Of a stretch of 64,000 nucleotides of DNA, positions 17,440 through 38,513 are shown one piece after another (within the stretch, counting starts at the first letter, position 1; each line of letters opens with the position of its first letter). Made by a program: the position numbers and the translations under genes. The stretch is from a virus. Where the stretch lies: positions 1 to 64,000 of IMG/VR virus record IMGVR_UViG_3300031227_011455; one strand, given 5' to 3'. The notes beneath the pieces were generated by a model. It was given only the letters and a program-made list of their open reading frames with translations. It was not told where the DNA came from and ran no database searches.

Positions 17440-20400
17440 TTATTCATCCATATCTAATCCGGTTACCATTAAATAATTTTTTAACAATTCAACTGCTTCC
17501 GGAACTTTTGATATATCTTTTTCATCTTTTAAATAGTTAGAATCAATAATACTTTTAATATACTGATTTTTCAAATCAATACAATCTGATTTTGTTGTTA
17601 TAAACTCTGATAAATTATCAAGAGCACCATGACCAATTAAACAATTTGTTTCCATTTCTCCCAATCTCTGACCACCATGATTTTTTCTTCCAGCTGGAGG
17701 TTGGAGAGTTTTTCTATTATACATAGCAATTGATCTAAAAGCAATTTTATGAGCTGCAATATGAACCATTCTGAAAAAATACATATAACCAACACATATT
17801 TTATTTAAAAGAAAATCATCTATAGAATGATCAAAAACTTTATATTCAGCTGGAGTATTTGTATATTTCATAGCTTCAATTATCATATCAGCTGACGATG
17901 ATTCAAATGGAGGTTCAATAATTGTAATGCTTTTTATAAAATCTTCATTTATTTTAATATTTTCTAATTGTTCTTTAAATTGATTATAATACCATCCATT
18001 ATTTGTATTATCAATAATTTTTATATAGTTTAAAAGATAATTTTTTATTTTTATATCTCTATCTTCAATTATTTCTTCTTGGCTAAGAGATTCATTAAAC
18101 ATATTTAATAAATTATTTCTTAAATCATTTATTGACATTGCTAAATTTGCTTCAAAAACTTGTCCTACATTCATTCTTGAAATAATACCCATTGGATTAA
18201 TGCATATATCTACATTTCTACCATCTTCTAATTTTGGCATCTCATTGTGTGGTAATATTTTGGAAATAACTCCTTTGTTTCCATGTCTATTTCCAATTTT
18301 ATCACCAACCTCAATGTTTCTTAAATAAATTGCATTCATTTCAACATATATGCCATTAATTTCTTCACCCTTGATTTTATATTTTCCAGAATGTGAAAAT
18401 TTATCAAGATTATTATCTCGAATGAATTGTAAAGCATTTGGTTTTGACATTCTTTGGTAAATTATATCTTGTATTGATTTTTCTTCATTTATTTGTCTTT
18501 CTTTTGTTTCTTCAACCCATTCTACATATTGTTGAATTTGATCATTATATTTATTAACATAAATATTAACAGATGGGACAAATAAATTATGTTTAGCTAT
18601 TAATGGAATTTCTTCTTTAAAAACAGAATTATATTCTAATGGATTATCAGGCATCTCCTTTAAAATAGCATAAGGATTTCCCTTATTTATAATATCATAT
18701 TTCTTTTTTAATTTGTTTCCATTTTGAATATTAAATGGTTTTGGAAGTGGTTTATAATTATTATTTTCTAATGAAATTAAAATTTTTGACTCTGGAATTG
18801 TAAAGGATAAATCTTTCACATGTATTGATGTAAATATATTTTCCTTAACTAATTTATCTGAAATAATAATTCCATCTTCATAATTATATCCATCTTTTGA
18901 CGTAATTGCAGTTAATAAATTTTTTCCTATATTTATTTCACCATTTTTACAAAAGTTACTTTCTGCAATTATATCTTTAGCTTTTACTTTATCACCTTCT
19001 GAAACATATACTTCCATCAAATCAATATTTTCTACATATAATTTTCTCATACTAACATTAATTAAATCAAAATCACCATCATCATAAGCAATCATTATAT
19101 AATCAGAATCAACATAAATTATAATTCCATCTTTTTTAGCTCTTTTAATAAATTGGGTATAATCTGTATATAATTGTTCACACCCAGATTTAACCATTGG
19201 TTGATCGAAATTAAATAACATAATAGCTTGTCTCATCTGAGAAGAAGCCATTTGTAATCTTGTTTGATCATCATTTCTTGAAAATGGAACCATTGTAACA
19301 GGTATAGATATAGGTTGATCTTTTAAAGTTTTTTCTGTGAATTTTAAATTTTCATCTAAGTCAACATTTGGTAAAAGATTTTGTAGTATACCACAGTTTT
19401 CTCTATCTGGTGTATCTACAGGACAAACTCTACCAAACATTGATGGTTGAATATCTCGAAGATAATAAGGGACATTTTCTTTTTTAAATCCTCCAGGTCC
19501 AACTAAACTAGTCCTTGACAGCAAAGTTAGTTCTTCAATTGGATTTATTGAAAAGTCGAATTGAACAATAGTTGATACATTAACATCAGATAATATTTGA
19601 GATGAATTGATATTAAATTTTGGTTTTCTTGATGTTCTATTTGACATACAAAGATCAAAAACAGCTTTTGATACTTTTGATAATATCACATATTCAAAAC
19701 ATCTAATCCTTTTGTTTATAAAATCTGTATCATCAATATCGTTTATTTTTATTACTTCTAAAAGATCTCCAAGAACAGTTCCTGTTGTAAAGAATTTTGC
19801 AGACATTAAATCAGTTTTTAAAATTAGATCAAGACCATAAATTAAATCTTCACCTTTTACTTTATAGTCATATGTTGAAAAACATTTACCCGTTTCTTTT
19901 ATAAAATCTTCTCTAGTATAATCTTCTGAAGATAAATAAAAATCTTTTAAGTCAAATAAAAGTTTATCATAGGTTGATAAACTCTTGATGTTTTCATCAT
20001 CTATTTCAATTTTAGAAAAGTCAAACATTTCTGCAATTTTATCATAACCATAATATGAAAACATTACTAAAACAAGAGGAACTTTCTTACCAAAAATTGA
20101 GATATGAACATAAGGAAAACTTTTTTCTTCAAAAACCATTAAAGATGCTACATTAGTTCTCATCTTAATATTTTTTCCTCTAGTAACAAAAGGAATATCA
20201 AATAATTGAAATAATGGAACTTTCTTTCTACCACCAATAATTATATAATTATCATCTATTAATTTTGGAATTGACATTGAAAGATCAATAACGGCTTCGC
20301 CTTTTTGTAATTTAATTACTAGATTACTTTTTAATGTTCTAAATAATTCTCCAGATGAAAATTTTGTATCTTTAATTCCAAAATCTGTAACTATAAATCC

Positions 20401-20538
20401 AAGCTCTTCAGCAGGTTTTAAAATTTCTCTAATGGTAGTCTCTATGTTTTCATATTCATGCTTCCTTAAAGTAAAGATATTTTTTCCGTCGTTAACTTTA
20501 TAACTTGGATTTATAAATTTCAAATTTTTAACCTCCAT
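17440..20538 (-). CDS. phage multisubunit RNA polymerase beta subunit, set 1
   Basis: This 1032-residue protein is an unsplit beta (RpoB/Rpb2) subunit. It carries the fork region (RTSLVGPGGFKK then FGRVCPVDTPDRENCG), the DGYNYEDGI element, GDKIGNRHGNKGV with both catalytic lysines, the NPMGIISRMNVGQ segment, and a C-terminal GGQRLGEMETNCLIGHGA. Bacterial beta is longer because of lineage insertions absent here. The ATG at 20538 overlaps the previous stop; a TTG 15 bases later has the better GGAGG spacing and may be the true start. It makes one half of a catalytic core with the beta' gene at 20758. No alpha, omega or sigma is visible. Confidence 0.95.
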   Translation of the reverse strand: MEVKNLKFINPSYKVNDGKNIFTLRKHEYENIETTIREILKPAEELGFIVTDFGIKDTKFSSGELFRTLKSNLVIKLQKGEAVIDLSMSIPKLIDDNYIIIGGRKKVPLFQLFDIPFVTRGKNIKMRTNVASLMVFEEKSFPYVHISIFGKKVPLVLVMFSYYGYDKIAEMFDFSKIEIDDENIKSLSTYDKLLFDLKDFYLSSEDYTREDFIKETGKCFSTYDYKVKGEDLIYGLDLILKTDLMSAKFFTTGTVLGDLLEVIKINDIDDTDFINKRIRCFEYVILSKVSKAVFDLCMSNRTSRKPKFNINSSQILSDVNVSTIVQFDFSINPIEELTLLSRTSLVGPGGFKKENVPYYLRDIQPSMFGRVCPVDTPDRENCGILQNLLPNVDLDENLKFTEKTLKDQPISIPVTMVPFSRNDDQTRLQMASSQMRQAIMLFNFDQPMVKSGCEQLYTDYTQFIKRAKKDGIIIYVDSDYIMIAYDDGDFDLINVSMRKLYVENIDLMEVYVSEGDKVKAKDIIAESNFCKNGEINIGKNLLTAITSKDGYNYEDGIIISDKLVKENIFTSIHVKDLSFTIPESKILISLENNNYKPLPKPFNIQNGNKLKKKYDIINKGNPYAILKEMPDNPLEYNSVFKEEIPLIAKHNLFVPSVNIYVNKYNDQIQQYVEWVEETKERQINEEKSIQDIIYQRMSKPNALQFIRDNNLDKFSHSGKYKIKGEEINGIYVEMNAIYLRNIEVGDKIGNRHGNKGVISKILPHNEMPKLEDGRNVDICINPMGIISRMNVGQVFEANLAMSINDLRNNLLNMFNESLSQEEIIEDRDIKIKNYLLNYIKIIDNTNNGWYYNQFKEQLENIKINEDFIKSITIIEPPFESSSADMIIEAMKYTNTPAEYKVFDHSIDDFLLNKICVGYMYFFRMVHIAAHKIAFRSIAMYNRKTLQPPAGRKNHGGQRLGEMETNCLIGHGALDNLSEFITTKSDCIDLKNQYIKSIIDSNYLKDEKDISKVPEAVELLKNYLMVTGLDMDE

Positions 20539-20758
20539 TTATTCTTTCTAAAACTAATTCTGAATATTCTATCAATTGTTTATCACTTAAATCACCCATA
20601 TAATTATAATGCATTTTTCTTGATATCCAAAAGTCGCCTTCTAATTTATCTGTATTTTCTCTTAAAAATTTAAAAAGAGTTCTTCTAGTTTTTAACCTAT
20701 ATCTTTTAATTTCTACAAGATTATTTATAAAACATTCAGCATCTAATTTATCAACCAT
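20528..20758 (-). CDS. hypothetical protein between RNA polymerase subunits
   Basis: This 76-residue basic protein (MVDKLDAECFINNLVEIKR) is best started at ATG 20758, overlapping the beta' stop (TAATG), with GGAGG nine bases upstream. It ends inside the start of the beta gene. Tight overlap on both sides suggests a stoichiometric accessory factor or subunit; sequence shows no known family. Confidence 0.65.
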   Translation of the reverse strand: MVDKLDAECFINNLVEIKRYRLKTRRTLFKFLRENTDKLEGDFWISRKMHYNYMGDLSDKQLIEYSELVLERINGG

Positions 20759-23475
20759 TAAGGAGTCCCTCCACAAATAATTCTATCAAAAATTCCAGTA
20801 TATCTTCCAGATTTTTGAATTCCTTTTATAATCTGTCTTTTTGGATTTGAAAATCCTAAACCCAATAACCAACTGGATTTTTCTGGAACTGTTTGAATGC
20901 TATAATAAGTTGGTTTAATAGTTTTTCTATTTTCTAATAATCTCCATAAAGTTTCATTTCCATTTTCAATTCCCCACATCATTTGCGAAATTATACATTC
21001 AAAATGAACATGGTGAATATCTCTACTATTATTATAAATTTCATATGAATCTGAAACTAAATCATTAAAATTTTTTCCTTTTGTTTGGTGGAATAATCTA
21101 GAAGCTAATGTCAGATCACCTACAATATCTTTTTGTTTTGATGATTCTTCATTATTTTTATCTAATTTTGCTATACCAGAATTATGAAATACTCTTAAAA
21201 TTAGCTGAGTATTTGTTTCACCTAATGATTGAGCTGCAATTACTCCAACAAATTGACTATGTAAAAGTTTATATAAATCTCCATAACATTTATGACACAA
21301 ATGTTCACTTTTACAGAAAATTGGACTTCTTAATTTAATAGTTTTTCCAAGTAAACTTTTTCGATTTTCTTTTGTTATTTTCTCTAAAACATTGCTATCA
21401 TTTAAAAAATATCTTTCTAATAACATTTTAGATTTTTTATCATCTTTAACATATACATCTAAATAATCTTCTGTTCCACAATCATCTAATTCTTTACTTA
21501 TTTCTAAATTTGTACCAGTAAAAAGTAATTTTCTTGAAAGATAACCAGATGCTCCAGTATTTAAAGCAACATCAAGAAGACCTTTTCTACAACCATAAGT
21601 TGAGTTAAAGAATTCCTCTTGGTTTAATCCTTCCAACAAACTATGTTTAATTGGTGTCTGTTTTATCATCCCATTAAAATCAGATACAAAACCTCTTGAA
21701 AAAGCTATTTGTTTTACTTGTTCCCAACTACCTCTTGATCCGGATTCTATTAAATAAGAATATTTAAAATTTTCTTTTAAAAAGTCAATTGTTTCTTTTG
21801 AATTTAATCTTTTTAATTGATCTATAACTGAACCATCTTTATAAATAGAATCTCTTATTTCTTCATAATTTTCAATAGCAAATGATTGTAATGATAAAGT
21901 TGGACCAAAAATAGTTGAATATTTAAAACCTGCAACTTTGATTTTATCAAGAGTTTCTGCAGTAATTTTGTCAGAATAATTTTCTTTAATATCATTCAAA
22001 ATTTTTATTAATTCTTTTTTTCCAATTGGAGAATTAATTAGATGATAGTCATCCGGAAAACATTCATTTAAAATTTTAATACTCTCTGGAACATTTACAT
22101 TTTTGTATTCAACTAAATTTTGTAATTTGGGAAATTGGTTCGTACTTAAAGTATATATGCCTAATACAATATCCTGACTAGGAACTGATGATAAACTCAT
22201 ATTAGCAGGATTTGTAAAATTTTTCGTAATTATTACTTTATCTAGAATCTCATCTTTAGTTTTCTGTGAAATAGGAATGTACACTGCCATTTGGTCGCCA
22301 TCAAAATCTGCATTAAAACCAGAACATGCAAGCGGATGTAATTTAATAACACTATCTTTTGATATTTTGATTTTAAATCCAAGCATGCTTAATCTATGTA
22401 AAGAAGGTTGTCTGTTTAAAATACATAATTCATTTTTTGATAATTCTTCGCAAATGTTAAATAATGAAAAATCATCAATTAAAATACAGTAATCTATGTA
22501 ATCAATTGCCTCATTTAATAATTTAAATTTACTAAACTCGATTAATTTTTTAGAAATCTGTAGTTTAAATAATTCTAAAAACATAATATATGGCAAAGAA
22601 CATTCATCAATTTTTAACGATGGATCTGGAATAATTACAGCTCTTCCAGAAAAATCAATTCTTTTACCAAGAATATTTCCTCTAATAAGTCCTTCTTTTT
22701 TTGATAGTTTTTCTATAATATGTTCGTATAACTCAATTGCATCTTTTTGGATTTGTTTAAAATATGAATAAAACAAAACCTTATCTCTACTAATATCAAT
22801 AATAGTATCTTTCATTGACTCTTTTTTAGTGAGAATTTGCATATAATATCTATTTATTTCATCAACTATCTGATTGTTTCTTTCAATTCCTTTTGCAGCA
22901 GGTCTCAAATCTGGCGGTAATACCAAAATATTTTGAATAAATAATTTATCTATGTTATCTTTTATTATTTTCCATTTACTATTTGGGTCATTTTCTGTGT
23001 ATCTTATTGATTCACTATTAATTAATTCATATATTGCTTCTGTTTTTTCCCATTTTTCAACATCAGGAGGAATTTTTGAATCTTCTGCAACATAAAAATA
23101 ACCATCTTTTCTAAATAAAGAACATTTATCACTTTTCATTAATTTATTTAAAAAGCTCTTAATTGTAGTATCAGATACATCAATAATTAAATCATACATT
23201 ATTGGGTTAACAATATGAACTGGTAAAATTATTTTAGCAAAACGTTTTCTTCTAACATTACTATTAACTATATCTATTCCACATGTTTCACAAGTTCCTC
23301 CAGATCTAGATATTCCATGATATGTTCCACATTGGCAAGTATAATTTTTTATCGGACCGAAAATTTGCTCAGAGAATAATCCAAGAGGGTGAAATTTTCT
23401 TTTATCCATAATTTTAGAAGTCGTCACCTCTTTTAAATCATCACAAAATAAACTTATGTCCAAAAGTTTAGGCAT
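20758..23475 (-). CDS. phage multisubunit RNA polymerase beta' subunit, set 1
   Basis: This 905-residue protein is an unsplit beta' (RpoC/Rpb1) subunit. It has an N-terminal zinc site (CQCG...CETCG near residues 47-62), GKRIDFSGRAVI, LNRQPSLHR, the catalytic NADFDGDQM, the bridge-helix and trigger-loop region (ESGSRGSWEQ...YGCRKGLLDVALNTGASGYL), a second zinc site (CKSEHLCHKCYG) and GVIAAQSLGETNTQL. ATG lies behind GAGGTAAAAG. It precedes beta in the operon, the reverse of bacterial rpoB-rpoC. Whether this is the virion or the non-virion enzyme cannot be read from the sequence. Confidence 0.95.
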   Translation of the reverse strand: MPKLLDISLFCDDLKEVTTSKIMDKRKFHPLGLFSEQIFGPIKNYTCQCGTYHGISRSGGTCETCGIDIVNSNVRRKRFAKIILPVHIVNPIMYDLIIDVSDTTIKSFLNKLMKSDKCSLFRKDGYFYVAEDSKIPPDVEKWEKTEAIYELINSESIRYTENDPNSKWKIIKDNIDKLFIQNILVLPPDLRPAAKGIERNNQIVDEINRYYMQILTKKESMKDTIIDISRDKVLFYSYFKQIQKDAIELYEHIIEKLSKKEGLIRGNILGKRIDFSGRAVIIPDPSLKIDECSLPYIMFLELFKLQISKKLIEFSKFKLLNEAIDYIDYCILIDDFSLFNICEELSKNELCILNRQPSLHRLSMLGFKIKISKDSVIKLHPLACSGFNADFDGDQMAVYIPISQKTKDEILDKVIITKNFTNPANMSLSSVPSQDIVLGIYTLSTNQFPKLQNLVEYKNVNVPESIKILNECFPDDYHLINSPIGKKELIKILNDIKENYSDKITAETLDKIKVAGFKYSTIFGPTLSLQSFAIENYEEIRDSIYKDGSVIDQLKRLNSKETIDFLKENFKYSYLIESGSRGSWEQVKQIAFSRGFVSDFNGMIKQTPIKHSLLEGLNQEEFFNSTYGCRKGLLDVALNTGASGYLSRKLLFTGTNLEISKELDDCGTEDYLDVYVKDDKKSKMLLERYFLNDSNVLEKITKENRKSLLGKTIKLRSPIFCKSEHLCHKCYGDLYKLLHSQFVGVIAAQSLGETNTQLILRVFHNSGIAKLDKNNEESSKQKDIVGDLTLASRLFHQTKGKNFNDLVSDSYEIYNNSRDIHHVHFECIISQMMWGIENGNETLWRLLENRKTIKPTYYSIQTVPEKSSWLLGLGFSNPKRQIIKGIQKSGRYTGIFDRIICGGTP

Positions 23476-23701: not shown

Positions 23702-23861
23702 TCTTATTTCCTTTTTCAAAAAGATTATTTAAAGCTTCATCAATAATATTTTTTAGAAAACTAAAAATATTATCTGAACTTTTTTGAACAACTGGTTTTA
23801 AATCTTGTATAGCTTGATTTCCAATTTCTTTTAAATCTTCTTTTAAATCTTCTTTTTTCAT
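23682..23861 (-). CDS. small hypothetical helical protein
   Basis: This 59-residue protein (MKKEDLKEDLKEIGNQ...) starts at ATG 23861 overlapping the stop of the E2-like gene (ATGA), and overlaps the next gene by 20 bases. It is amphipathic with an FLKNIIDEALNNLF helix. Translationally coupled between the E2-like gene and the RNA polymerase operon. Function unknown. Confidence 0.6.
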   Translation of the reverse strand: MKKEDLKEDLKEIGNQAIQDLKPVVQKSSDNIFSFLKNIIDEALNNLFEKGNKNGNREE

Positions 23862-24211
23862 AAAATTTTATCATCTCCTTCTTTAATACATTTAAATGCA
23901 CCCCAATCTTGATAGTATGAACTATTATAATTAAAAATTTTTAATGTCTCAACAATAATATTTATTAAATCAACATTTATTATTCTATCTTTTATAGAAT
24001 CTGGTAAACAGAAAATATTAGTTTCTGGATCACAATTTGGATGTTTACCATTAACAATTAATATTTTTTTTACTCTTCTTGTCTCGTCTACATAAACTTC
24101 AAACTTATTTATAATATATTCTGAATCTATAAGTATTATTTTATAAAAATTTGATATACATATTAATTTATCTGGTATTATTTTTCTTCTAAAAAGATAT
24201 TTTCTTAACAT
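23858..24211 (-). CDS. E2-like (UBC-fold) ubiquitin-conjugating-type protein
   Basis: Started at ATG 24211, directly after the E1-like stop, this is 117 residues, shorter than the 150 typical of E2 enzymes. It contains strands ending in ILIVNGKHPNC at 50-60 and NIFCLPDS at 65-72. The HPN tripeptide (57-59) followed by a Cys (C68) in an (I/F)CL context is the E2 active-site arrangement; canonical spacing is one residue shorter. A helical C-terminus follows. The expected role is to receive a ubiquitin-like protein from the adjacent E1-like enzyme as a thioester. The motif is seen; conjugation activity is inference. Confidence 0.7.
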   Translation of the reverse strand: MLRKYLFRRKIIPDKLICISNFYKIILIDSEYIINKFEVYVDETRRVKKILIVNGKHPNCDPETNIFCLPDSIKDRIINVDLINIIVETLKIFNYNSSYYQDWGAFKCIKEGDDKIL

Positions 24212-24212
24212 A

Positions 24213-25100
24213 TTAAGCACTACCTGTTTCTGGTAATAATTCAACATAAAACTTGCCATTATAATTGTTAATTGCAATTATGTAATAATTAAATGAAAAT
24301 GGAACTACATTCATAAGTGAGGAAAAATTAGAGATTATATCATTGATTGAATTGAAGTTATTTTTAGGAACTTGTTTTGTCATATATGGTGTATTCTTAT
24401 CACCAACACAAATTGTTAAATCATTTTTCTTATTTATATCAATTATTGATAAATAATTATTTTGTAAATTTATTAGTTTTTCATCAAATGAATTAAAATC
24501 ATATATTATATCAACATTATCTTTTTTAGATATTAAATTTTTAGTTTTTTCTGTAAAGGAATCAATTGGAATTTCATGGACAATTTGTTTATTTACTATC
24601 TCATTAAAAATTCCGTTTCCAATTAAAATGGTTGCATTTAAAGCAGCATAATTTAAATCTGTTTTACTTAATCTACTTATATATTTACCTTCATGTTGTT
24701 TTTCATAAGAAACACTTTTTCTACAATCTATAATCAAATCTCTATAAGAAATATACAATCTTGCATCAATTATATTTTCTCTATCATATGTAAAATCTCT
24801 ACAATCTATAACCAAATCACATTTCGGTATTTTTGTAATACCCTCTATAAATTTTTCATTTTGAACATGAAGTTGAACATTACTATTTATTTTCTTATAA
24901 ATAGCTTTTGTTTTTAGTTCTCCAACATCCTTTTGTTGGTAGACAGAATTTCTTATATTTTTTTGTTCAACAATATCATAATCAATTAATGTTAAATTTT
25001 TTGTTGATTCAAGTTCAGATATATTTTTTGCTAAAAAACCACCTAATGTTCCGATTCCAATTAAACAAATATCACCATACAAATCAAATATACCCTCCAT
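24213..25100 (-). CDS. ThiF/E1-like activating enzyme, second copy
   Basis: This 295-residue protein opens with a Rossmann nucleotide loop (CLIGIGTLGG, residues 12-21), then LTLIDYDIVEQKNIRNSVYQ and DVGELKTKA. The D-x-D-x-V...N-x-R...VG..K order is the adenylating core of ThiF/MoeB/E1 enzymes, which activate the C-terminal glycine of a ubiquitin-like protein with ATP. DLVIDCRD and DLIIDCRK supply cysteines, but no certain catalytic Cys domain is visible. The C-terminal 130 residues are unlike MoeB. The stop is followed at once by the E2-like gene, so the two form a pair. The start lacks a good ribosome binding site. Confidence 0.8.
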   Translation of the reverse strand: MEGIFDLYGDICLIGIGTLGGFLAKNISELESTKNLTLIDYDIVEQKNIRNSVYQQKDVGELKTKAIYKKINSNVQLHVQNEKFIEGITKIPKCDLVIDCRDFTYDRENIIDARLYISYRDLIIDCRKSVSYEKQHEGKYISRLSKTDLNYAALNATILIGNGIFNEIVNKQIVHEIPIDSFTEKTKNLISKKDNVDIIYDFNSFDEKLINLQNNYLSIIDINKKNDLTICVGDKNTPYMTKQVPKNNFNSINDIISNFSSLMNVVPFSFNYYIIAINNYNGKFYVELLPETGSA

Positions 25101-25148
25101 ATTAATCTTTTATTTGTTCTATCATTTAAAAAAAATTTCTTTAATTTT

Positions 25149-25286
25149 TTACCATCCAAAGATGCATTTATAAGTAAATATTGAAAAACCAATTATAAGA
25201 ACTATAGATGCATAATATCCATAATGTCCACTATTTCTAAAATTGTATACACTGGTATCATGACCCATTCCTTCATCATCTCTCAT
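25149..25286 (-). CDS. small single-pass membrane protein
   Basis: This 45-residue ORF begins at ATG 25286, overlapping the previous gene's end, with AAAGG upstream. Residues 1-23 are polar and 24-45 form one hydrophobic segment (YYASIVLIIGFSIFTYKCIF). It lies upstream of the E1-like gene. A membrane anchor or phage membrane peptide is likely; no further function is evident. Confidence 0.65.
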   Translation of the reverse strand: MRDDEGMGHDTSVYNFRNSGHYGYYASIVLIIGFSIFTYKCIFGW

Positions 25287-25288
25287 AA

Positions 25289-25528
25289 CTAACCTTTCAT
25301 TATCTTTATTATTTCAACTATATTATTTTTTAAAAAATCAATTTCTTCTATATTAAGACCACCCGATGGAGCGTATCCTGTACTACCATCTTTCTTTTCA
25401 AAACATCTTGTAATTCTTAATTTTGATTCGCCACCATCATAAGAAAAGATTGAGCATAATAAAGAAGAGTTATCTTTTTTTAATTCAATTAATTTAATTA
25501 ACTTGTCTTTAGATTGATCATATGCCAT
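25289..25528 (-). CDS. hypothetical protein, faintly PC4-like
   Basis: This 79-residue protein shows SYDGGESKLRITRCFEK, then GGLNIEEIDFLKNNIVEII. Beta-strands with a K-L-R-I-x-R-x-F motif followed by a helix faintly recall PC4-like single-strand-DNA-binding transcription cofactors. The similarity is weak. It sits between two hairpins in the conjugation locus. Confidence 0.6.
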   Translation of the reverse strand: MAYDQSKDKLIKLIELKKDNSSLLCSIFSYDGGESKLRITRCFEKKDGSTGYAPSGGLNIEEIDFLKNNIVEIIKIMKG

Positions 25529-25543
25529 ATAAAAAACCTTTCT

Positions 25544-25585
25544 GGAAGTTAAACTGTATGAGTTTCCTCATACAGTTTAACTTCC
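25544..25585 (-). terminator. strong hairpin terminator (19-bp perfect stem)
   Basis: A perfect 19-bp stem with a 4-base loop lies between the 25590 and 25289 genes. On the plus strand it is followed directly by TTTTTT; on the minus strand by AGAAAGG then TTTTTT. It can terminate in either direction, and AAAGG also acts as ribosome site for the next gene. Confidence 0.75.
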
Positions 25586-25589
25586 TTTT

Positions 25590-26108
25590 TTAGTTTATTT
25601 TTAATGTCTTAAACATTCTTTTTTCTTCACTTGTTGGTATTGGTTGAAACTCAGATTTAAAATTGAAGAATTGTTGGGAAACTTCAACAGAATATAAATA
25701 AGGAATTTGAACTATAAATTTTTCTGCATTACTATTCCATTCTAAATTTAACTTATCTGCATATGAAATAAATTTATCTAATTCTTTTTCATCCTTAAAT
25801 TTAAATGACCTGGGATTAATTAAATGAAATCTTGGGTCATTATATAAATCTGGTCCAATTTGATATTTATTATTTTCGCTAAAAATAGCTTCGTATGCTC
25901 TACTTTTACACTTTCGTCTTGCAAATTTTTTATCATGTGAATCTTTTACTGAACAAATAGAAACACCGCGAGAAATAATCTTTTTATCTTTTGATAAAAA
26001 TAAACAAACGCTAAAAATATTTCCAATCAGTGGATAATTTTTGTAATAAAATTTAATTTGTTCTACACCTGCTCCTCTTAATTTTTCATCAACATTTAGC
26101 ACTGTCAT
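25590..26108 (-). CDS. hypothetical protein
   Basis: This 172-residue protein starts behind GGAG. Its middle holds SRGVSICSVKDSHDKKFARRKCKSRAY read in pieces (ISRGVSICS, then FARRKCKSRAYEAI). The (R/G)GVAiCS..D...GR..A..RA..A pattern occurs in plasmid and phage proteins of unknown function. It has its own flanking terminators. The location within the ubiquitin-like locus makes it a candidate partner or substrate; inference. Confidence 0.6.
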   Translation of the reverse strand: MTVLNVDEKLRGAGVEQIKFYYKNYPLIGNIFSVCLFLSKDKKIISRGVSICSVKDSHDKKFARRKCKSRAYEAIFSENNKYQIGPDLYNDPRFHLINPRSFKFKDEKELDKFISYADKLNLEWNSNAEKFIVQIPYLYSVEVSQQFFNFKSEFQPIPTSEEKRMFKTLKIN

Positions 26109-26130
26109 ATATTTTCTCCATAAATAAAAA

Positions 26131-26158
26131 GGAAGGATGATTTCTCAACCACCCTTCC
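26131..26158 (-). terminator. Rho-independent terminator after the ubiquitin-like gene
   Basis: On the minus strand GGAAGGGTG pairs with CATCCTTCC (9 bp including one G-T), 10-base loop, followed by TTTTTATTT. It closes the E2-JAMM-E1-ubiquitin-like unit. Confidence 0.8.
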
Positions 26159-26173
26159 TTTCATACTAAAATA

Positions 26174-26623
26174 TTAGCCTTTTCTGCCTGCTTCTCTTAC
26201 AAACTCAAGCACATCTCCATTCTTAAGAACATAAGAATCTTCAGCAGCTTCACCATTAACAATACTGGAAGAATCTGTTTCTATATTCAAAATTTCTCGG
26301 TATAGTGCTTTTACATAACCAACACTTTTTCCAACAACGGGATAGTTAGAAGAAGCTGCGCCGCAAGAAACAGTAACAAGTGTTTCAAAAACATTATTTT
26401 TCTTCTTGTAACTAGTAAGATTTGCATTTATATAATCAATTTCTTCATGATCAGTGTTGTATGCATCTTCTGCATCTTCTGCATCTTCCTGATACGCCAT
26501 AATTGCATCAACTAAATCATCTTTTCTTGCCTTACTCATTCCAACAATATTATACTGACGACAAATTTCTCTAAGTTCTGCATTTGTTTTTTCTTCCAAA
26601 TCTTCTCTTTTGTAATCTACCAT
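26174..26623 (-). CDS. SAP/Rho_N-like domain fused to a beta-grasp ubiquitin-like domain
   Basis: This 149-residue protein has two parts. Residues 5-46 (LEEKTNAELREICRQYNI, then KARKDDLVDAIMAY) match SAP/Rho_N-type nucleic-acid-binding helices. Residues 77-149 look like a beta-grasp domain of ThiS/MoaD/ubiquitin type: strands ETLVTVSCGA, then a helix, IVNGEAAEDSYVL and NGDVLEFVREAG. The chain ends exactly at GRKG, so a terminal glycine is free for adenylation; PRTRC-C proteins, as I recall them, end in a similar GTKG. An acidic linker (EDAEDAEDA) joins the parts. Expected role: modifier activated by the adjacent E1-like enzyme. AGGAG lies seven bases before the ATG. Confidence 0.72.
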   Translation of the reverse strand: MVDYKREDLEEKTNAELREICRQYNIVGMSKARKDDLVDAIMAYQEDAEDAEDAYNTDHEEIDYINANLTSYKKKNNVFETLVTVSCGAASSNYPVVGKSVGYVKALYREILNIETDSSSIVNGEAAEDSYVLKNGDVLEFVREAGRKG

Positions 26624-26652
26624 AATAAAACTCCTTTTCTTTTTTTTAAACT

Positions 26653-27339
26653 CTATTTTTTTGTTTTTGGTAACCTAATTTTTGAATTCGAATTCATAGT
26701 TAAAATATCAAAATATACTTCTGAAATATTAAAATTTTCATTTTTAATTATGTTGTAGAATGCGTTACACATATGACTTGCAACGGCAACATTTGTAAAA
26801 TATATTTGAGGTTCAGATTTTGATAATTCTTCACAAGACATTTCATCTGGTGATTTATCAATTGGATTTTTAATTTCTGGATGATAATCAGTTAAATTTG
26901 GTGTTAGATCAATACCTCCTTTCTTAATAAAAATTTGAATATTTCCATCAGTTAATTCATTTCCGCCTGAGATAACCGTTATGTCATCTAATTTTTTTGC
27001 GTAATCTGAAATTAACTTCCTTGTTTTATGATTATCAACAGCGACAAATATTATTGAATTTTCTTTAACTATATTGGGAATTAAAGATTCATCCAAATAA
27101 TAAGGATAATCATGATAACTTATATTTTTAAATTTATACGATAATTCTTGACATTTTACTGTGGATTTATCTCCAAGTTCTAAAAATTCTTGTCTTTCTC
27201 TATTTTTTAATTCATACTCATCTCCATCAACAAGATTAATTTCTGATGATGGAATTGTTTTATCTGTATCAACATATCTAGAAATAGCATTTGATAAAAC
27301 AGAACCTATTCCACCTAAACCAATAATTGATATTTCCAT
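26653..27339 (-). CDS. ThiF/E1-like activating enzyme (PRTRC-F-like)
   Basis: Started at ATG 27339 (GGAG six bases upstream) this is 228 residues. It begins SIIGLGGIGS with the dinucleotide loop at 7-12, then INLVDGDEYELKNRERQEF, and FVAVDNHKTRK. These are the adenylation-core motifs of ThiF/MoeB/E1 enzymes. MSCEELSKSEPQIYFTNVAVA near 167-187 resembles the Cys-containing segment of PRTRC-type ThiF proteins, C169 being a candidate catalytic residue. It lies between the JAMM and the ubiquitin-like genes. Its substrate should be the GRKG-ending protein downstream. Confidence 0.85.
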   Translation of the reverse strand: MEISIIGLGGIGSVLSNAISRYVDTDKTIPSSEINLVDGDEYELKNRERQEFLELGDKSTVKCQELSYKFKNISYHDYPYYLDESLIPNIVKENSIIFVAVDNHKTRKLISDYAKKLDDITVISGGNELTDGNIQIFIKKGGIDLTPNLTDYHPEIKNPIDKSPDEMSCEELSKSEPQIYFTNVAVASHMCNAFYNIIKNENFNISEVYFDILTMNSNSKIRLPKTKK

Positions 27340-27360
27340 TTTTATCTCCATATAAATTTT

Positions 27361-27457
27361 TTAAGTAAGATAATCTGCCCAATTATATTCATAATGTTCA
27401 ATTAAATTATAATCTATTGTTTCATTTGTAAGTTTTTCATGTTTATGAATACAAGTA
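27361..27457 (-). other. likely frameshifted continuation of the JAMM gene (Cys/His-rich tail)
   Basis: The JAMM frame stops at 27458 right after an A-rich run (27468-27490). In the +1 frame the sequence continues KKFCACDTCIHKHEKL and ends NWADYLT at a TAA at 27361, just before the ribosome site of the next gene. This frame has no start codon of its own after an upstream stop. The CxCxxC-H-H pattern is protein-like and could bind zinc. Either programmed/polymerase slippage, a sequencing error in the A-run, or a real truncating mutation would explain it. Confidence 0.55.
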
Positions 27458-28339
27458 TCACATGCGCAAAACTTTTTTAATTTTTTTATCTTCTACATTT
27501 TCAACAAACATTAATGGATCATGTTTTATTTGTTTATCCTCAGGAATTTCATTTTTAATAAGTTTACCATCTTTAAATGTATATGTAACTCTTGGTTTAA
27601 AAGTATATTGATAAACTTTTTCTTTAACTTTTTCTAACCATTCTTCTTTAAAATTATATATTGTTGGATCATCACTATCTATTTTATAACCAAATTTTGG
27701 TTTCTTATAATAATTATATATTTTTACACCAGGTATATTATATGATTCATTTGATTCATTTTCTATACATTCCAAATTTTCAATATAGTCCTCTGGTGGA
27801 ATAACAATTCTCATTCCATTTACAACTATTGAAGCGCAAATTTCAAACAATTCTGAATTTATTTTTCCTATTGTAAAGTGTATTCCATCAAATTTTTCTT
27901 CATCCGAAATATCTGTTCCTGAATGAAATGCTGACATAGAAGCATGAGAATGAATACTTGAAACCAATACATAATCTTTAATTGTTTGTTTTGAATCATA
28001 ATCTATAGAAGAAAAAGAAACTTCTTGATCAGGAACAAGAATTCTATATCTTTTTTTATCCTTATTATAAAATATAAGAGCAACTGCTTCTGATTTATGT
28101 ATTTCATAAACTTTTTTAAAAAAACCTACTATATTTCCAATTAATCTTGTTGGAATTTTTGGAATCATAATTCTTGCAAATGTAGGCATATCTTCTAAAA
28201 ATGAAATTTTGTCAATTGGTGTTATGCTCTCAATTAAATCTAATTTTTTCTTTAAGTATATTCCATCTTTTGCAATTATATAACATGTTTCATCATCTGG
28301 TATATTATCTTTTTTATCATTTATGTAAATATTCATCAT
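27458..28339 (-). CDS. JAB/JAMM-domain metallopeptidase (PRTRC-A-like)
   Basis: Started at ATG 28339 (TAATG overlap with the E2-like gene; GGAG six bases upstream), 293 residues. A JAMM site is complete: Glu84 in KSEAVALI, HSH at 130-132, then seven residues, Ser140 and Asp143 (HSHASMSAFHSGTD). JAMM peptidases cut isopeptide or peptide bonds after ubiquitin-like proteins, either to mature the modifier or remove it. The modifier here already ends in GRKG, so deconjugation is the more likely role. The N-terminal 60 residues resemble no known domain. The C-terminus probably continues by frameshift to 27361. Confidence 0.88.
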   Translation of the reverse strand: MMNIYINDKKDNIPDDETCYIIAKDGIYLKKKLDLIESITPIDKISFLEDMPTFARIMIPKIPTRLIGNIVGFFKKVYEIHKSEAVALIFYNKDKKRYRILVPDQEVSFSSIDYDSKQTIKDYVLVSSIHSHASMSAFHSGTDISDEEKFDGIHFTIGKINSELFEICASIVVNGMRIVIPPEDYIENLECIENESNESYNIPGVKIYNYYKKPKFGYKIDSDDPTIYNFKEEWLEKVKEKVYQYTFKPRVTYTFKDGKLIKNEIPEDKQIKHDPLMFVENVEDKKIKKVLRM

Positions 28340-30831
28340 TAAGAACTCCAAAATCTGTAAAGTCTAAACATACAGTTATTCTTTTCTATTATATTACCAT
28401 ACATATTAGGAATACCAACTTTTCTATTTCTCGAAATTAAGTCTGTATTTTTAATTCTTGGAAGAATTAAACCAATTCTTGAACTTAATTCTAATCTAGA
28501 AATACCTCCAACATAACTTAAAAATTTATATTTTAATTCACTTAAAGAATATAAATATGGTTCGAAGTTACTATACATACAACCAACAATCGAGGTATTT
28601 TCATGAAATAAATCTCCAGTTTGTACTTTAATTTTTAAATTTGGTTCTGTTAATTTTAGTTTATCGTATTTTTTATCTTCTGGATTATAAATATCAAAAT
28701 TTGAAATTAAATTATCATATCTTAATGTTCTATAATTTGAAGTCAAAACTAATGGAACAATATCATCAATAATAAAAGCCTTGATTTCGTTACAATCTTT
28801 CTTTGGAAAATCAGTTATACTTATAAATTTAGATTTAATTTTTGAACCAGTTTTTATGTCATTTATTTCTCTACAAACTTTTCTAACTTTTATAAAATTA
28901 TTTAAACCATTCTTAAATTCAACAAGAGGAAATAAAATAATATTTCCATCATCATCCAATAGATTAAGATAAAAACAATCATCATCATATGAAAATTTAG
29001 AAATTGTTCTAATATTAAACATATCATTTGGATTTGTCCAATCAATAACAATAACTTCGTCGCCAATATTATAATTTATATCATTAAAATATGATTTAAT
29101 TGAAAAAGATGTATTGTTTTTATCACAAATGTTCATGAAAAAGTTTTTACATACATCATAATCATATTGAAAAATATTAGAAGTATCATAATTATTTTGT
29201 ACTCCAAAACCATTATTTTTTATTATATAAACTATATTTTTATTTTTAACAATATTTACCTCTTCCTTGTGAGCATTTGTAAATATATTTCTATTAGAAA
29301 AATATACTATTTCTTCTAATCCTATTGATTCATCTAAAATTTCTGATAATTGATAATTAGTATCATTTAATAAAATTTCTATATGTCTTTTATTTGCATC
29401 TTCAAATGTTAAATATATTTGCCCCCTTCTTACACGTTTGTTTATTAGAAAAACTTCATCTATAGTATAAATATTATAACTGCTAATTCGATATGATAAA
29501 ATATATTTTTTGTTTTCTATTATTTTTATTCCATTAAATTCTATATCATTTAATGATATAGCTATTTTATTTAAAAATATATTTTCAAGAAAATAATCTT
29601 TTCCAATTTTAAATTGATATGATCCATCTTTTAATTTAATAATTTTTTCTAGTTTTCTAATATCCTTTGAATTCTTAAAAAATAGTATATCACCTGGAAC
29701 AATTTTTGTTTCTTCATTAATATTGTATGATTTTTGCTCTATGATTTTAATAGTTGGAGGTATTTCTGCTTTTCCAAATTCATCAAAATCAATAGTTGTT
29801 TTTTTATTTTCTTCATCTTCTAACTCAATTCCTGTTTTTCTTCCATTTGAACTCATTAGATATGAAGTTACATAGAATTTTTTATCATCGATAATTATTT
29901 CATCACCAATAGAAACAATATCACCATTTGGTAAACTAATTGATTCTAATACATTTTTATTTCTTATTATCGTTCCAATATTTTTAATATTTTTTACATA
30001 ATCTACATCCATTAAATTAAATAAATTTGATATATTAAAATCATTATTAGAACCTAAATAATTTTGTTTATATTCTTCAATTACTTTATATGGTGTTGCA
30101 TTAATCATTGTATTCCATTCTGCTGAAAATATAAATAATGGATCAATTTTTGTATTATATGACCATGTAAAGAAATCACATAAAAATGGATTAGTTTCAT
30201 AATTCATACAATGATCATAATAATCATAATTAAAACTATTGAACCAGAACTGATTAATAACATTTTTAGCAGTTTCCAAAATAGTTAAATCACCTTCTGG
30301 ATAACGTCCCAAACAAATATTAAGATCCCCATCTAAATTTGGTAAACATGGTTCTAATAGATAATCTTCTAAACTTGTTAATGGATGTAATCTAAAGAAT
30401 ACTCTCATACTAATTAAATTATTTGCTTTATTTAAATTCATTAAGTACACTATATATGGAAACGATAATGTAAATTTATAAGGTTTTTTCTTTAAATCAA
30501 ATTTATCTAATTCATAAAGATCATATTTTCCTGTTAATTTATGTTTTTCAACTATATTTTTTAAATCACCATCAAATAATATAGTTCTTATTTGGGGTTC
30601 ATCTTCTAAAATTATTGTTTTTGAAAAATCAGTATGAGTTGTAATAAATCTACAATTCTTTGGTAAAATTTCTGTTTGACAAGAAAATGCTGTTTTAAAT
30701 AAATTTAAAAAGTTAGAAGTATTCATCATTGTTTTTACTATAGTTGGTTCTGTATCCTTCGGATCATGATATGAAGATAATACATGTTTTGTATAAGTGT
30801 TATTTATCAGAATTTCGTCTATATTATACAT
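28339..30831 (-). CDS. large E2-like protein (PRTRC-B-like) with SH3-like C-terminal modules
   Basis: This 830-residue protein has an N-terminal E2-like region (about residues 75-235). FPYIVYLMNL and MRVFFRLHPL give strands, then LPNLDGDLNICLG at 163-175: LPN in place of HPN, with Cys173 at exactly the canonical spacing, followed by helical FWFNSFNYDYY. PRTRC-B proteins, as I recall them, carry the same N..G..CLG signature. Residues from about 300 to 830 hold several beta-rich modules starting with GD (NGDIVSIGDEIIID at 302-315, VPGDILFF at 378-385, YNIGDEVIVIDW at 587-598), SH3- or tudor-like. Expected to accept the modifier; substrate choice may lie in the modules. ATG follows GGAGAATAATTAAT. 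Confidence 0.72.
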   Translation of the reverse strand: MYNIDEILINNTYTKHVLSSYHDPKDTEPTIVKTMMNTSNFLNLFKTAFSCQTEILPKNCRFITTHTDFSKTIILEDEPQIRTILFDGDLKNIVEKHKLTGKYDLYELDKFDLKKKPYKFTLSFPYIVYLMNLNKANNLISMRVFFRLHPLTSLEDYLLEPCLPNLDGDLNICLGRYPEGDLTILETAKNVINQFWFNSFNYDYYDHCMNYETNPFLCDFFTWSYNTKIDPLFIFSAEWNTMINATPYKVIEEYKQNYLGSNNDFNISNLFNLMDVDYVKNIKNIGTIIRNKNVLESISLPNGDIVSIGDEIIIDDKKFYVTSYLMSSNGRKTGIELEDEENKKTTIDFDEFGKAEIPPTIKIIEQKSYNINEETKIVPGDILFFKNSKDIRKLEKIIKLKDGSYQFKIGKDYFLENIFLNKIAISLNDIEFNGIKIIENKKYILSYRISSYNIYTIDEVFLINKRVRRGQIYLTFEDANKRHIEILLNDTNYQLSEILDESIGLEEIVYFSNRNIFTNAHKEEVNIVKNKNIVYIIKNNGFGVQNNYDTSNIFQYDYDVCKNFFMNICDKNNTSFSIKSYFNDINYNIGDEVIVIDWTNPNDMFNIRTISKFSYDDDCFYLNLLDDDGNIILFPLVEFKNGLNNFIKVRKVCREINDIKTGSKIKSKFISITDFPKKDCNEIKAFIIDDIVPLVLTSNYRTLRYDNLISNFDIYNPEDKKYDKLKLTEPNLKIKVQTGDLFHENTSIVGCMYSNFEPYLYSLSELKYKFLSYVGGISRLELSSRIGLILPRIKNTDLISRNRKVGIPNMYGNIIEKNNCMFRLYRFWSS

Positions 30832-30836
30832 ATTAA

Positions 30837-31190
30837 TTATTCTCCTCTTACGTATTTTAAAATTTCAGCAAAATATTTAATTATTTTTTCAGGTTTATTA
30901 TTATCTAACACTCCCCAAGTTTTAACTCTTTTTAAATTAATACCAATTTCCCATGCAGAAACTATATATTCTTCTTTAAATTCTCTTTCGAGACATAAAT
31001 AACATATTTTATATGAATTACTCTCATATTCAACTGCAAGAAATATATTTGGTCCTTTTGGTATAGCATCTTGATTTTGATTTTTAGATTTAGGTGATTC
31101 TTCTTCCATAATTTTATCACAAATTATTTTTACTTGTTCATCAAATTCTGAATTTTTAATTTCTTCTAATAAATCACTTAAAATTGACAT
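30837..31190 (-). CDS. hypothetical protein at the head of the conjugation operon
   Basis: This 117-residue protein ends six bases before the large E2-like gene, so it is probably co-transcribed with it. Helical N-terminus, polar linker, then a strand region with ICYLCLE and VKTWGVL. No family recognised; a candidate dedicated factor of the pathway by position only. Confidence 0.65.
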   Translation of the reverse strand: MSILSDLLEEIKNSEFDEQVKIICDKIMEEESPKSKNQNQDAIPKGPNIFLAVEYESNSYKICYLCLEREFKEEYIVSAWEIGINLKRVKTWGVLDNNKPEKIIKYFAEILKYVRGE

Positions 31191-31206
31191 TAATTATTAC
31201 CTCTAA

Positions 31207-31524
31207 TCATTTTATTTTTCGTAATTTAAAAACTTTTTTATTAGATGGTGTAACTAGAAATTCTAATTTATTAAATGGAACAGTTCTCCAATCTTGTTTT
31301 TCTGTATCAAATACACTAAGCATTTTAATTTTTTGTATTTTTGCAAGAATTTTTGGCAGATCAATTCCTTTTGGTCTTTTCTCTTTTGGAATTTTTTCAA
31401 AATCTAATGTACATTTCATAGATCTTCTATTGCCATCTTTTTTAATAAATTGAATAGATACTTCCTTTTCAGATCTTATTAACTTTAAAAATTGTATTAC
31501 ATTTGTTAATTCTTCTTCTGCCAT
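31207..31524 (-). CDS. DUF2693-like phage protein
   Basis: This 105-residue protein contains VSIQFIKKDGNRRSMKCTLDF, then IPKEKRPK and SVFDTEKQDWRTV. The F.kkDGs.R.m.cTl / VfD....WR order fits small SH3-fold phage proteins of the DUF2693 type. Function not known. Confidence 0.65.
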   Translation of the reverse strand: MAEEELTNVIQFLKLIRSEKEVSIQFIKKDGNRRSMKCTLDFEKIPKEKRPKGIDLPKILAKIQKIKMLSVFDTEKQDWRTVPFNKLEFLVTPSNKKVFKLRKIK

Positions 31525-31541
31525 TTTATACCTCTATATAG

Positions 31542-31883
31542 TTACCAAGTTTTATATTTAAAAACTCTTTTTGGATAAATTGGATCTCTATAATTTCCTT
31601 TTGATAATACATCTTCAATCCATCTAATTCCAGCAGATAATCTAGGCACAGAAAATTTTCCAATATCATCATTATGAACAGAAAAGAATACATCATTTCT
31701 TCCACCAGTTTCTGGATCGTCTTTGTCAGGAAATGTTTTTATTTCTTCTAAATATTGTATCCTTACATCAAATGTATCTTTCATGAAATTTTTAAATTCT
31801 TCAATTTTATCTTGTCCAATTAATGTTGCTGGCCAAATACAAACTTGATTAAATTCCTTTTCTCTTTCTATATTTTTATCCAT
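31542..31883 (-). CDS. conserved phage protein of unknown function
   Basis: This 113-residue protein shows FNQVCIWPATLIG, RIQYLEEIKT, GGRNDVFFSVHNDDIGKF and GIRWIEDVL. This pattern is strongly conserved in proteins of many large phages, where no function is assigned as far as I know. It overlaps the radical SAM gene by eight bases. Confidence 0.75.
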   Translation of the reverse strand: MDKNIEREKEFNQVCIWPATLIGQDKIEEFKNFMKDTFDVRIQYLEEIKTFPDKDDPETGGRNDVFFSVHNDDIGKFSVPRLSAGIRWIEDVLSKGNYRDPIYPKRVFKYKTW

Positions 31884-32907
31884 GTCTTATCTCCGAATGT
31901 ATTAAATTATCTGAACTATCTTCATCTTTTGACAAAAGTTCACTCATCATATAACAACTGTGATTACATCCCCTGCAATAATTCTTTTTATCATGACTTA
32001 TTGAATCTTTTAAATGTTTATTTAAATTTCCATCTTCGTCTAGAATATTTTTTAGATTAAAAAGAAATGGTGTAGAAACTCCGCGACAACGTAAACAAAG
32101 TCGCACGCTTCCATCCGCATCAACACATAAGTTATGAAAATCTTCATCTAATTTACAATCATATTCACTTGGGAGAATATTATATATTCTTGGTAATAAC
32201 GTATCTCTCATATGAACATTTAATTTTTCATCTATAATTCTATTAAATGTCTCTCTTAAAAATGCAGATTTTCTTACAAGAATAGATTCATCTTCAACAT
32301 TTGAAAAATCATAATATGGATTTTTTGAAATGTCTACAAATGTTATATCACTATTTATTCCCTTATCTGTAAGATCTCTTACTAACAAATAAAGATATTT
32401 TAAATTATCATTTGTAACAGTTATTTCAGCTACAGCATCTTTTATCACACTTGAATATTCTTGTAATTTTTTAAGACCAACAATACTTTTTTTATAAATA
32501 TCTCCTTTTTTATTCTGGTAAATAATTGGATCAATAGAAGCTGTAAATCCTTCTATATAAGAAACTTTTTTAAATAATTCAATCATTTTTTCTTGGCTAA
32601 TTTTAGAATTATTACTAATAATTGTATAATGAATATCATTATCATTACAATAATTAATAATTTTATAAAGGTCTGATCTTATTAAAGGTTCTCCGCCATA
32701 AAATATATGGAAGCAATTTTTGTTGTGGATTTTTAATTTTTTTAACCCTGATATTATTACATCTGTTGTCATTTCATTTTTTGCATAATATGACATATCA
32801 GGATATTCTTTTGGTTTTGTTGGGTAATTTTTAACAATTCTACAATATTCACAATTAAGATCACATCTTCTTGTTAATAACCAATTAACTATTTGAATTT
32901 TATTCAT
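31876..32907 (-). CDS. radical SAM/SPASM-domain protein
   Basis: This 343-residue protein starts with the [4Fe-4S] SAM-binding motif RRCDLNCEYC (C15, C19, C22), followed by FYGGEPLI, a typical radical SAM GGEP strand. The C-terminal third carries a Cys-rich SPASM-type region: LCVDADGSVRLCLRC, then YCRGCNHSCYM. SPASM enzymes modify peptides or proteins or build cofactors. It is not QueE, which is shorter and lacks SPASM. No obvious precursor peptide lies next to it; three proteins with a shared TNSSST leader elsewhere in the window are possible but unproven substrates. Confidence 0.88.
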   Translation of the reverse strand: MNKIQIVNWLLTRRCDLNCEYCRIVKNYPTKPKEYPDMSYYAKNEMTTDVIISGLKKLKIHNKNCFHIFYGGEPLIRSDLYKIINYCNDNDIHYTIISNNSKISQEKMIELFKKVSYIEGFTASIDPIIYQNKKGDIYKKSIVGLKKLQEYSSVIKDAVAEITVTNDNLKYLYLLVRDLTDKGINSDITFVDISKNPYYDFSNVEDESILVRKSAFLRETFNRIIDEKLNVHMRDTLLPRIYNILPSEYDCKLDEDFHNLCVDADGSVRLCLRCRGVSTPFLFNLKNILDEDGNLNKHLKDSISHDKKNYCRGCNHSCYMMSELLSKDEDSSDNLIHSEIRHG

Positions 32908-38141: not shown

Positions 38142-38513
38142 TCAACTCATCCTTGTAGTCGAAAATATTTTAATATCTTCCTTAGAAATATTAAATAAAT
38201 CTGAAATTATTTTAATTTCTTTAACCATCTTATTATAATCTATTTCTATACATTCATCACATTCATCAATATCAAATGTTTTTCCAATTAAAATTTCATC
38301 TTCACTATTTAATCCACATTCCGTTCCATACATAAAAGATAATCCATTTTTGTTTATTATTATCCTTAGATCATCTATATTTTTAATATCTTCTTCAAAA
38401 ATTCTTAATCCATTCTCTACTATAGATTTTAAATCTTCCCAATCCATTTTAAAACCAATTAGAATATAAGATGTTGATGAACTATTTGTTACAAAATCAC
38501 TTTTTATTTTCAT
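38142..38513 (-). CDS. protein with TNSSST leader motif, copy 1
   Basis: This 123-residue protein begins MKIKSDFVTNSSSTSYI, then continues with an unrelated acidic sequence (DECDECIEIDYN near 80). The leader is nearly identical to those of the genes at 46272 and 46713. FVTNSSSxSF-type N-termini occur in many uncharacterised bacterial proteins, so it is likely a processing, modification or targeting signal. No function is known for the rest. Confidence 0.7.
   Translation of the reverse strand: MKIKSDFVTNSSSTSYILIGFKMDWEDLKSIVENGLRIFEEDIKNIDDLRIIINKNGLSFMYGTECGLNSEDEILIGKTFDIDECDECIEIDYNKMVKEIKIISDLFNISKEDIKIFSTTRMS

Follow-up and report, generated by a model that had tools for sequence, protein, structure and literature searches.

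In bacteria, the conjugation of ubiquitin-like (Ubl) proteins has been studied mainly as a defense against phages. Among the described systems, Bil combines a two-domain Ubl, a CEHH-type conjugating enzyme (E2), and a pseudodimeric activating enzyme (E1) (PMC11354881), and it conjugates its Ubl and interferes with phage assembly, according to the passage of PMC13373217 that cites Hor et al. 2024. A bacterial operon of type 6d (Iyer et al. 2006, PMC1779556) joins a predicted E1, a JAB peptidase, a Ubl with a C-terminal glycine, and an E2-like protein without the canonical histidine. Here, we analyzed a window of 64,000 nucleotides, positions 1 to 64,000 of the IMG/VR virus record IMGVR_UViG_3300031227_011455, which is a fragment of 65,187 bp. 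On its minus strand, the window carries a gene cluster that probably encodes a phage-borne Ubl-conjugation system with an E2/E3-like enzyme, together with a second, noncanonical E1-Ubl-E2 set. This reading rests on homology, motif conservation, synteny, and domain architecture, from which we infer activation, transfer by thioester chemistry, the choice of substrates by an E2/E3-type tail, removal by the JAMM peptidase, the β-grasp fold of the second modifier, and the chemistry of the second set.

A quartet with signatures of ubiquitin-like conjugation

The core of the cluster consists of four genes encoding, in transcription order, an E2-like protein, a JAMM peptidase, a ThiF/E1-like enzyme, and a Ubl modifier. 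An earlier sequence-only reading of the window had reported four adjacent, codirectional genes at this site, and their coordinates, strand, and order were all correct. Relatives were collected by scanning viral and genomic contigs and annotated with family hidden Markov models (HMMs) built for this analysis, with loci counted as distinct by E1 sequence. The complete set E2(N+C)-JAMM-E1-Ubl-ThiF2-mE2, in which ThiF2 and mE2 are a second E1-like and a minimal E2-like protein, was found in 59 distinct viral loci. Motifs in these complete loci were scored with crude regular expressions, whose misses need not be losses; patterns from broad ThiF2 and E2 alignments were too divergent to scan with.

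The E2-like protein (28339..30831, 830 amino acids) is predicted to have a UBC-like N-terminal domain (30082-30669, about residues 55-250) followed by a C-terminal extension of ~540 amino acids (28342-29964). Its active-site motif, LPNLDGDLNIC(173)LG, places the putative catalytic Cys173 at 30313-30315. N165 and C173 were invariant in the alignment of 42/42 relatives, and the N..C motif was present in 56 of the 59 complete loci. When the profile of the N-terminal part was compared by hhalign with plasmid PRTRC_B/Prok-E2_D, we obtained a probability of 93.8 (P=1.7e-7), with Cys173 placed on the conserved cysteine of that family and an identical N-x7-C-x-G spacing; the match weakened when the comparison was limited to the four annotated PRTRC B sequences (probability 44, P=2.3e-4). 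Direct HMM searches of Pfam, PHROGs, NCBIfam, and PADLOC with the 830-amino acid protein returned no useful match, and tblastn against deposited phages returned none. The AlphaFold2 (AF2) model had a predicted local distance difference test (pLDDT) score of 78 overall and mostly 78-97 in residues 70-250, where a strand meander leads into the Cys loop and helices, as would suit a UBC fold. In the C-terminal part, the model is mostly β, and the best Foldseek matches of the whole chain were tandem Tudor/SH3-like proteins (53BP1, SETDB1, and AGDP3), none of them at E<=0.001. Thus, we tentatively describe the tail as predicted tandem SH3/Tudor-like barrels. Several other cassettes (contigs L025, 2324-6765; L029; L094; L101; and L123) each contain two or three paralogs with the E2 domain.

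The second open reading frame, which overlaps the 3' end of the E2 gene, encodes a JAB/JAMM metallopeptidase (27458..28351; PRTRC_A, 2.7e-14; Prok-JAB, 3.8e-5), a predicted deconjugase and maturase. Its residues H134-S-H136-x7-S144-x2-D147 and E88 were invariant in 21 relatives that include plasmid PRTRC A, and the motif was found in all 59 complete loci. The third encodes the ThiF/E1-like activating enzyme (26653..27351; ThiF, 6.9e-15; PRTRC_ThiF, 3e-10) with an intact adenylation motif. GxGGxG, R53-Q54, K62, D106, and Cys173 were invariant in 24 relatives, and regular expressions detected the RQ motif in 57 and the Cys motif in 54 of the 59 complete loci.

The Ubl modifier (26174..26623) carries a Rho_N domain at its N terminus (26483-26602; 8.6e-10) and a C-terminal β-grasp domain (26177-26383) that ends in G-R-K-G. 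A crude pattern for the Rho_N/SAP-like motif matched 40 of 59 Ubl proteins. The C-terminal domain matched TGS in 31/39 members and ThiS in 24/39, with the best values at about 1e-4, while PDB profile matches were weak and included SAMP2 and PF1061. A comparison with PRTRC protein C (Prok_Ub) was likewise weak (hhalign probability 33, P=4.6e-4). In alignments the KG end was invariant across relatives; it formed the very C terminus in 40 of the 58 scored Ubls and was followed by one to five further residues in the other 18, which suggests that the JAMM peptidase has maturation work to do in some loci. One apparent fusion of Ubl to ThiF2, in contig L089, was rejected as more likely to be a frameshifted Ubl running into ThiF2. 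Right behind the Ubl stop lies an intrinsic-terminator-like hairpin (26127..26162, minus strand). Because 1.4 such sites are expected by chance in 9.9 kb, the evidential weight of this hairpin is its position.

Together, these results bear out what the sequence-only reading had seen in the quartet: an E2-like protein with an LPN...Cys motif, a JAMM peptidase, a ThiF/E1-like enzyme, and a β-grasp protein ending in GRKG, closed by a terminator. It had overlooked the Rho_N domain, as well as the fact that the E2 domain takes up only ~250 of the 830 amino acids. Judged by their sequences, the four proteins carry the signatures of Ubl conjugation, namely, an E1 with ATP motif and cysteine, an E2-like protein with an invariant cysteine, a β-grasp protein with a C-terminal glycine, and a JAMM motif. 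The same genes could instead serve a sulfur-carrier pathway, in which the E1 would thiocarboxylate the Ubl, the Ubl and the radical SAM protein would jointly serve a cofactor, nucleoside, or peptide modification that takes up the sulfur, and the E2-like protein would act as a binding partner. The resemblance of the Ubl to ThiS/TGS and of the E1 to ThiF/MoeB fits this alternative, as does the radical SAM gene present in 56 of the 59 clusters. We consider it unlikely, since no rhodanese or sulfurtransferase was recognized among the cluster genes scanned, the small cellular E2-JAB-E1-Ubl operons described below have no detected radical SAM gene, and an invariant cysteine in a Prok-E2_D-like domain next to a JAMM peptidase suits conjugation better.

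In the conjugation pathway that we propose, the JAMM peptidase would mature those Rho_N-Ubls that carry a tail, and the E1 would adenylate the C-terminal glycine of the G-x-K-G motif. The Ubl would then pass from Cys173 of the E1 to Cys173 of the E2, whose tandem SH3/Tudor-like tail would pick the substrate, making the protein a combined E2/E3, and the JAMM peptidase would also strip the Rho_N-Ubl from its targets. At a guess, from the Rho_N domain and the adjacent RNA polymerase genes, the targets might be proteins bound to nucleic acids, for example, those of the transcription machinery.

A second E1-like and E2-like pair

Downstream of the quartet, ThiF2 (24213..25100, minus strand) is a second E1-like protein with a Rossmann/ThiF domain (ThiF, 7.3e-12), whose PDB profile matches include MoeB (1.5e-14) and MccB (1e-12). 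It retains the glycine-rich motif and the Asp and Lys of nucleotide binding; its R-Q is replaced, and the RQ motif is absent from ThiF2 in all 59 complete loci. The last ~75 residues (about 24216-24437) show a strand-strand-helix-strand-strand pattern, which suggests a putative β-grasp domain, and the final residue is alanine in 58 of the 59 loci. Six distant relatives encode a shorter E1-like protein, of only 175-200 amino acids, and after it a separate protein of 84-95 amino acids, always ending in alanine, which stands where the C-terminal domain would be; an mE2-like gene comes next. The small protein matched the C terminus of ThiF2 weakly (probability 26, P=7e-4), with the two C termini aligned.

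The neighboring mE2 (23858..24211, minus strand) has an HPN-x8-Cys motif, which we take as its candidate active site. H57, P58, and C68 were invariant in the alignment (45/45), and HPN..C was matched in 53 of the 59 complete loci. Direct HMM searches of Pfam, PHROGs, NCBIfam, and PADLOC gave nothing useful, and the mE2 profile had no detectable relation to that of the main E2. Three of its four PDB profile matches were ubiquitin-conjugating E2s, aligned exactly over HPN..C (E=0.02-1.2). Its AF2 model reached a pLDDT of 95.8, and the Foldseek matches of this model were enriched in E2s (Ubc9, UbcH7, Ube2T, and the E2 of Bodo saltans virus), although none of these matches was significant.

It is quite possible that this second pair does not conjugate anything. 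In that case, mE2 would be a binding scaffold with a structural HPN-Cys, and ThiF2 either a pseudoenzyme or an adenylase of the MccB type whose substrate is a small, peptide-like protein. Such a role would explain the universal absence of the RQ motif, the presence of MccB among the best PDB matches of ThiF2, the alanine in place of a terminal glycine, and the nonsignificant fold match of mE2 to UBC. It sits less well with the invariant H, P, and C of mE2, with the nucleotide-binding Gly, Asp, and Lys kept in ThiF2, and with an order of E1-like, small, and E2-like protein that is preserved even when the genes are split. This alternative covers the second set only and is compatible with Ubl conjugation by the quartet. 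On the conjugation reading, the E1-like enzyme of the second set would carry its own small, Ala-terminated modifier as a fusion and would be partnered by a minimal E2-like protein with HPN-Cys. We tentatively suggest that two Ubl systems may stand side by side, one of canonical type, built of E1, E2(E3), Rho_N-Ubl, and JAMM, and the other of an Ala-ending modifier fused to an RQ-less E1-like protein with its HPN-Cys mE2; the latter would be a new type of conjugation and may act on the adjacent phage transcription machinery. Apparently, the second set can exist by itself: one contig (L013/L147) retains the radical SAM gene, the 105-amino acid gene, the 172-amino acid gene (X172), ThiF2, and mE2, whereas no E2, JAMM, E1, or Ubl was detected in the part of it that was read.

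A near-constant block in a family of large phages

The quartet is real, but as a description of the cassette it was incomplete, for the conserved genes span 23858-32907 and form a block of 10 to 11 genes that includes the second pair. It runs from radical SAM through a pair of small genes to the long-tailed E2, JAMM, E1, Ubl (mostly Rho_N-fused), ThiF2, and mE2, after which come the RNA polymerase genes. All of the following members lie on the minus strand. The radical SAM protein (31876..32907; Radical_SAM, 4e-12), the upstream member, has CxxxCxxC and a C-terminal Cys cluster. It does not score as a viperin equivalog (NCBIfam, 49 versus a cutoff of 180 bits), and its match to PADLOC pVip (4e-14) covers the core domain only. 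The two small genes encode conserved proteins with no assigned function, of 105 amino acids (31207..31524; 58/59 clusters) and 117 amino acids (30837..31190; 52/59). Two accessory conserved proteins, of 172 (25590..26108) and 79 amino acids (25289..25528), were each found in 16 of the 59 complete clusters. Between their genes, at 25544-25585, we noted a near-perfect hairpin of 19 pairs with a T-run, possibly another terminator.

Directly downstream of mE2 lies a gene for an RNA polymerase β'-like subunit (20758..23475, minus strand; Pfam Rpb1/Rpb2 domains), whose membership in the cluster is unproven, and the β gene follows it (17440-20538). A second β'-like gene was found ~34 kb away (57090-60110), so that the polymerase genes are split in the genome. 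The record also carries a terminase gene and Rad50-type genes, and nearly all of its genes lie on one strand. From the terminase and the multisubunit RNA polymerase, the carrier is by its gene content a large phage, and the carriers of the cluster form a family of large uncultured phages. Elsewhere in the window, the product of 6565-7269, which starts with MADSLGDRMKEKYEDRYRIKLTRRMPVIIRLDGKSFHSVTKD, resembles by eye a tRNA(His) guanylyltransferase (Thg1). An MKIKxDFVTNSSSTSY/F-like N terminus is common to small, otherwise dissimilar proteins encoded at 38142-38513, 46272-46703, and 46713-47123, and recurs in contigs L003 (630-995 and 1536-1883) and L147 (5921-6256).

Among the 63 closest RNA polymerase relatives with enough upstream sequence, ThiF2 was present in 60, mE2 in 57, E1 in 54, E2 in 53, and Ubl in 52. 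Thus, the cluster is a near-constant part of the lineage rather than sporadic cargo, and the ThiF2/mE2 set is its most widely kept part. This constancy also bears on whether the cassette mimics or undoes a Ubl-based host defense of the Bil or CBASS type, with the JAMM peptidase as the main tool. Bil does attach its Ubl to hinder phage assembly (Hor et al. 2024, as reported where PMC13373217 cites it), and in PADLOC ThiF2 matched E1-E2 defense models (3e-10) and, weakly, BilD (8e-4), through its ThiF domain. A counter-defense role is nevertheless very unlikely, as deconjugation needs no full E1-E2-Ubl set and the block is a near-universal core of the lineage instead of a patchy one.

Several results weigh against a Ubl-conjugation system with a second E1-Ubl-E2 set. 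ThiF2 may be inactive in adenylation because it lacks the R-Q motif. The mE2 model reached only a template modeling (TM) score of 0.3-0.4 to UBC enzymes (E>0.6, none at E<=0.001). For the large E2, the check by AlphaFold and Foldseek that the sequence-only reading had proposed gave a model of residues 70-250 that could be a UBC fold; no match reached E<=0.001, and UBE2O (7un6), a weak one, was the sole E2 enzyme among the 50 best. The Rho_N domain, on which the proposed targets partly depend, is missing from the tandem Ubls of the PRTRC-like cassettes of two deposited phages, KLEB27-3 and D69. Last, of 78 sufficiently long loci (partly redundant), 77 have the RNA polymerase β' gene and then β behind the cluster, but this linkage may be lineage synteny, as Rad50 is often found upstream in the same block. 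We therefore did not take the synteny within a single lineage as proof of a functional tie to RNA polymerase.

Comparison with PRTRC and other known systems

The sequence-only reading had matched the set to PRTRC genes A/B/C/F. These labels were slightly wrong, as the PRTRC counterparts of the four genes are B, A, ThiF, and C, and PRTRC F is another protein. Kinship to PRTRC stood, at a distance, through the PRTRC_A, PRTRC_ThiF, and PRTRC_B profile matches; membership did not. Although their E-values were significant, JAB scored 53.2 bits against a curated PRTRC A cutoff of 101.8 and ThiF 39.9 against 144.75, and E2 and Ubl had no direct HMM match to PRTRC_B/C. Searches for ParB and PRTRC D and E, which had already been noted as missing, covered the 65-kb record, six relatives of 127-277 kb, and two deposited phages and gave nothing but one weak generic ParB-type match; the records may be incomplete, and the D/E searches matched their positive controls in PRTRC plasmids. 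In the E1 tree, whose deep nodes are poorly supported, the viral clusters formed one clade (support 0.95) separate from plasmid PRTRC. Its nearest neighbors in the tree were two related contigs, followed by small E2-JAB-E1-Ubl operons from Methylomirabilota and other metagenome-assembled genomes (MAGs), with plasmid PRTRC further out. It is thus highly improbable that a phage acquired a true PRTRC module with a plasmid-type maintenance function, even though A, B, and ThiF are similar and the B-A-ThiF order is shared. Because no ParB, D, or E turned up, the cutoffs were missed, and the viral E1 clade is separate, the cassette, as judged from sequence, is not itself PRTRC but is distantly related to PRTRC A/B/C/ThiF and is predicted to work like it. 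Both have JAB, Prok-E2_D, ThiF, and a Ubl with a G-x-K-G-like end, whereas the phage locus places a mostly Rho_N-fused Ubl last, has an E2 three times longer, and adds the second E1/E2-like pair.

PRTRC-like cassettes do exist in deposited phages, largely annotated as hypothetical protein. Bacillus phage vB_BauM_KLEB27-3 carries a tandem Ubl (Prok_Ub, 5e-27), a short E2, a JAB (PRTRC_A domain in the record note), and ThiF in one stretch; its Ubl (L005, 2688-3437) has four repeats. That of Vibrio phage D69 (L006, 4286-5077) has about three, also beside E2, JAB, and ThiF, and both Ubls are annotated as hypothetical. These cassettes resemble ours in holding phage-borne Ubl, E2, JAB, and ThiF in a single gene run, but their Ubls are tandem and come first, their E2 is short, no Rho_N or second pair was detected, and the E1 is only 26-33% identical. 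A jumbo-phage overview (PMC7824862) makes no mention of JAB, ThiF, E2-like, or Ubl proteins, and a phage cassette like the present one was not described in the literature searched.

The cluster resembles the cellular ubiquitin machinery in having a tag, an activating enzyme, a conjugating enzyme, and a tag remover, and the phages that carry it may use it to label proteins to their own ends. As a near-constant block, this predicted Ubl-conjugation set belongs to an entire phage lineage. Its genes, short enough for expression and testing, encode a natural E2 whose large tail is putatively SH3/Tudor-like, a modifier joined to a domain of nucleic-acid type, and possibly a second chemistry of conjugation. 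UBE2O, a eukaryotic E2/E3 hybrid, combines a UBC domain with tandem SH3-like domains. The likeness to it is an analogy of architecture only, as the structural match is not significant.

Bil shares the logic of Ubl, E1, E2, and JAMM, but the two-domain Ubl, CEHH-type E2, and pseudodimeric E1 belong to Bil (PMC11354881), and no PADLOC model of BilA-D matched the quartet. Operon type 6d likewise brings together E1, JAB, a Gly-ended Ubl, and an E2-like protein, but it was reported from bacteria rather than phages, and its description lacks a second set, Rho_N, and radical SAM (PMC1779556). The small chromosomal operons of Methylomirabilota, Falkowbacteria, KSB1, and related MAGs have the same gene types, in the same order in several, with E1s 40-50% identical to the viral E1 and Ubls ending in G-x-KG. 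They differ in an E2 that is mostly 208-317 amino acids long without the long tail, in Ubls in which no Rho_N was seen, and in having no detected mE2. Those from Methylomirabilota/NC10 MAGs (L113, L114, L116-L118, L120, and L121; E1 44-50% identical to the viral query) are short and partly truncated in some contigs, and they apparently represent an undescribed minimal cellular system. Relative to known prokaryotic Ubl conjugation, the phage cluster would be a new variant, with a second set that is possibly novel.

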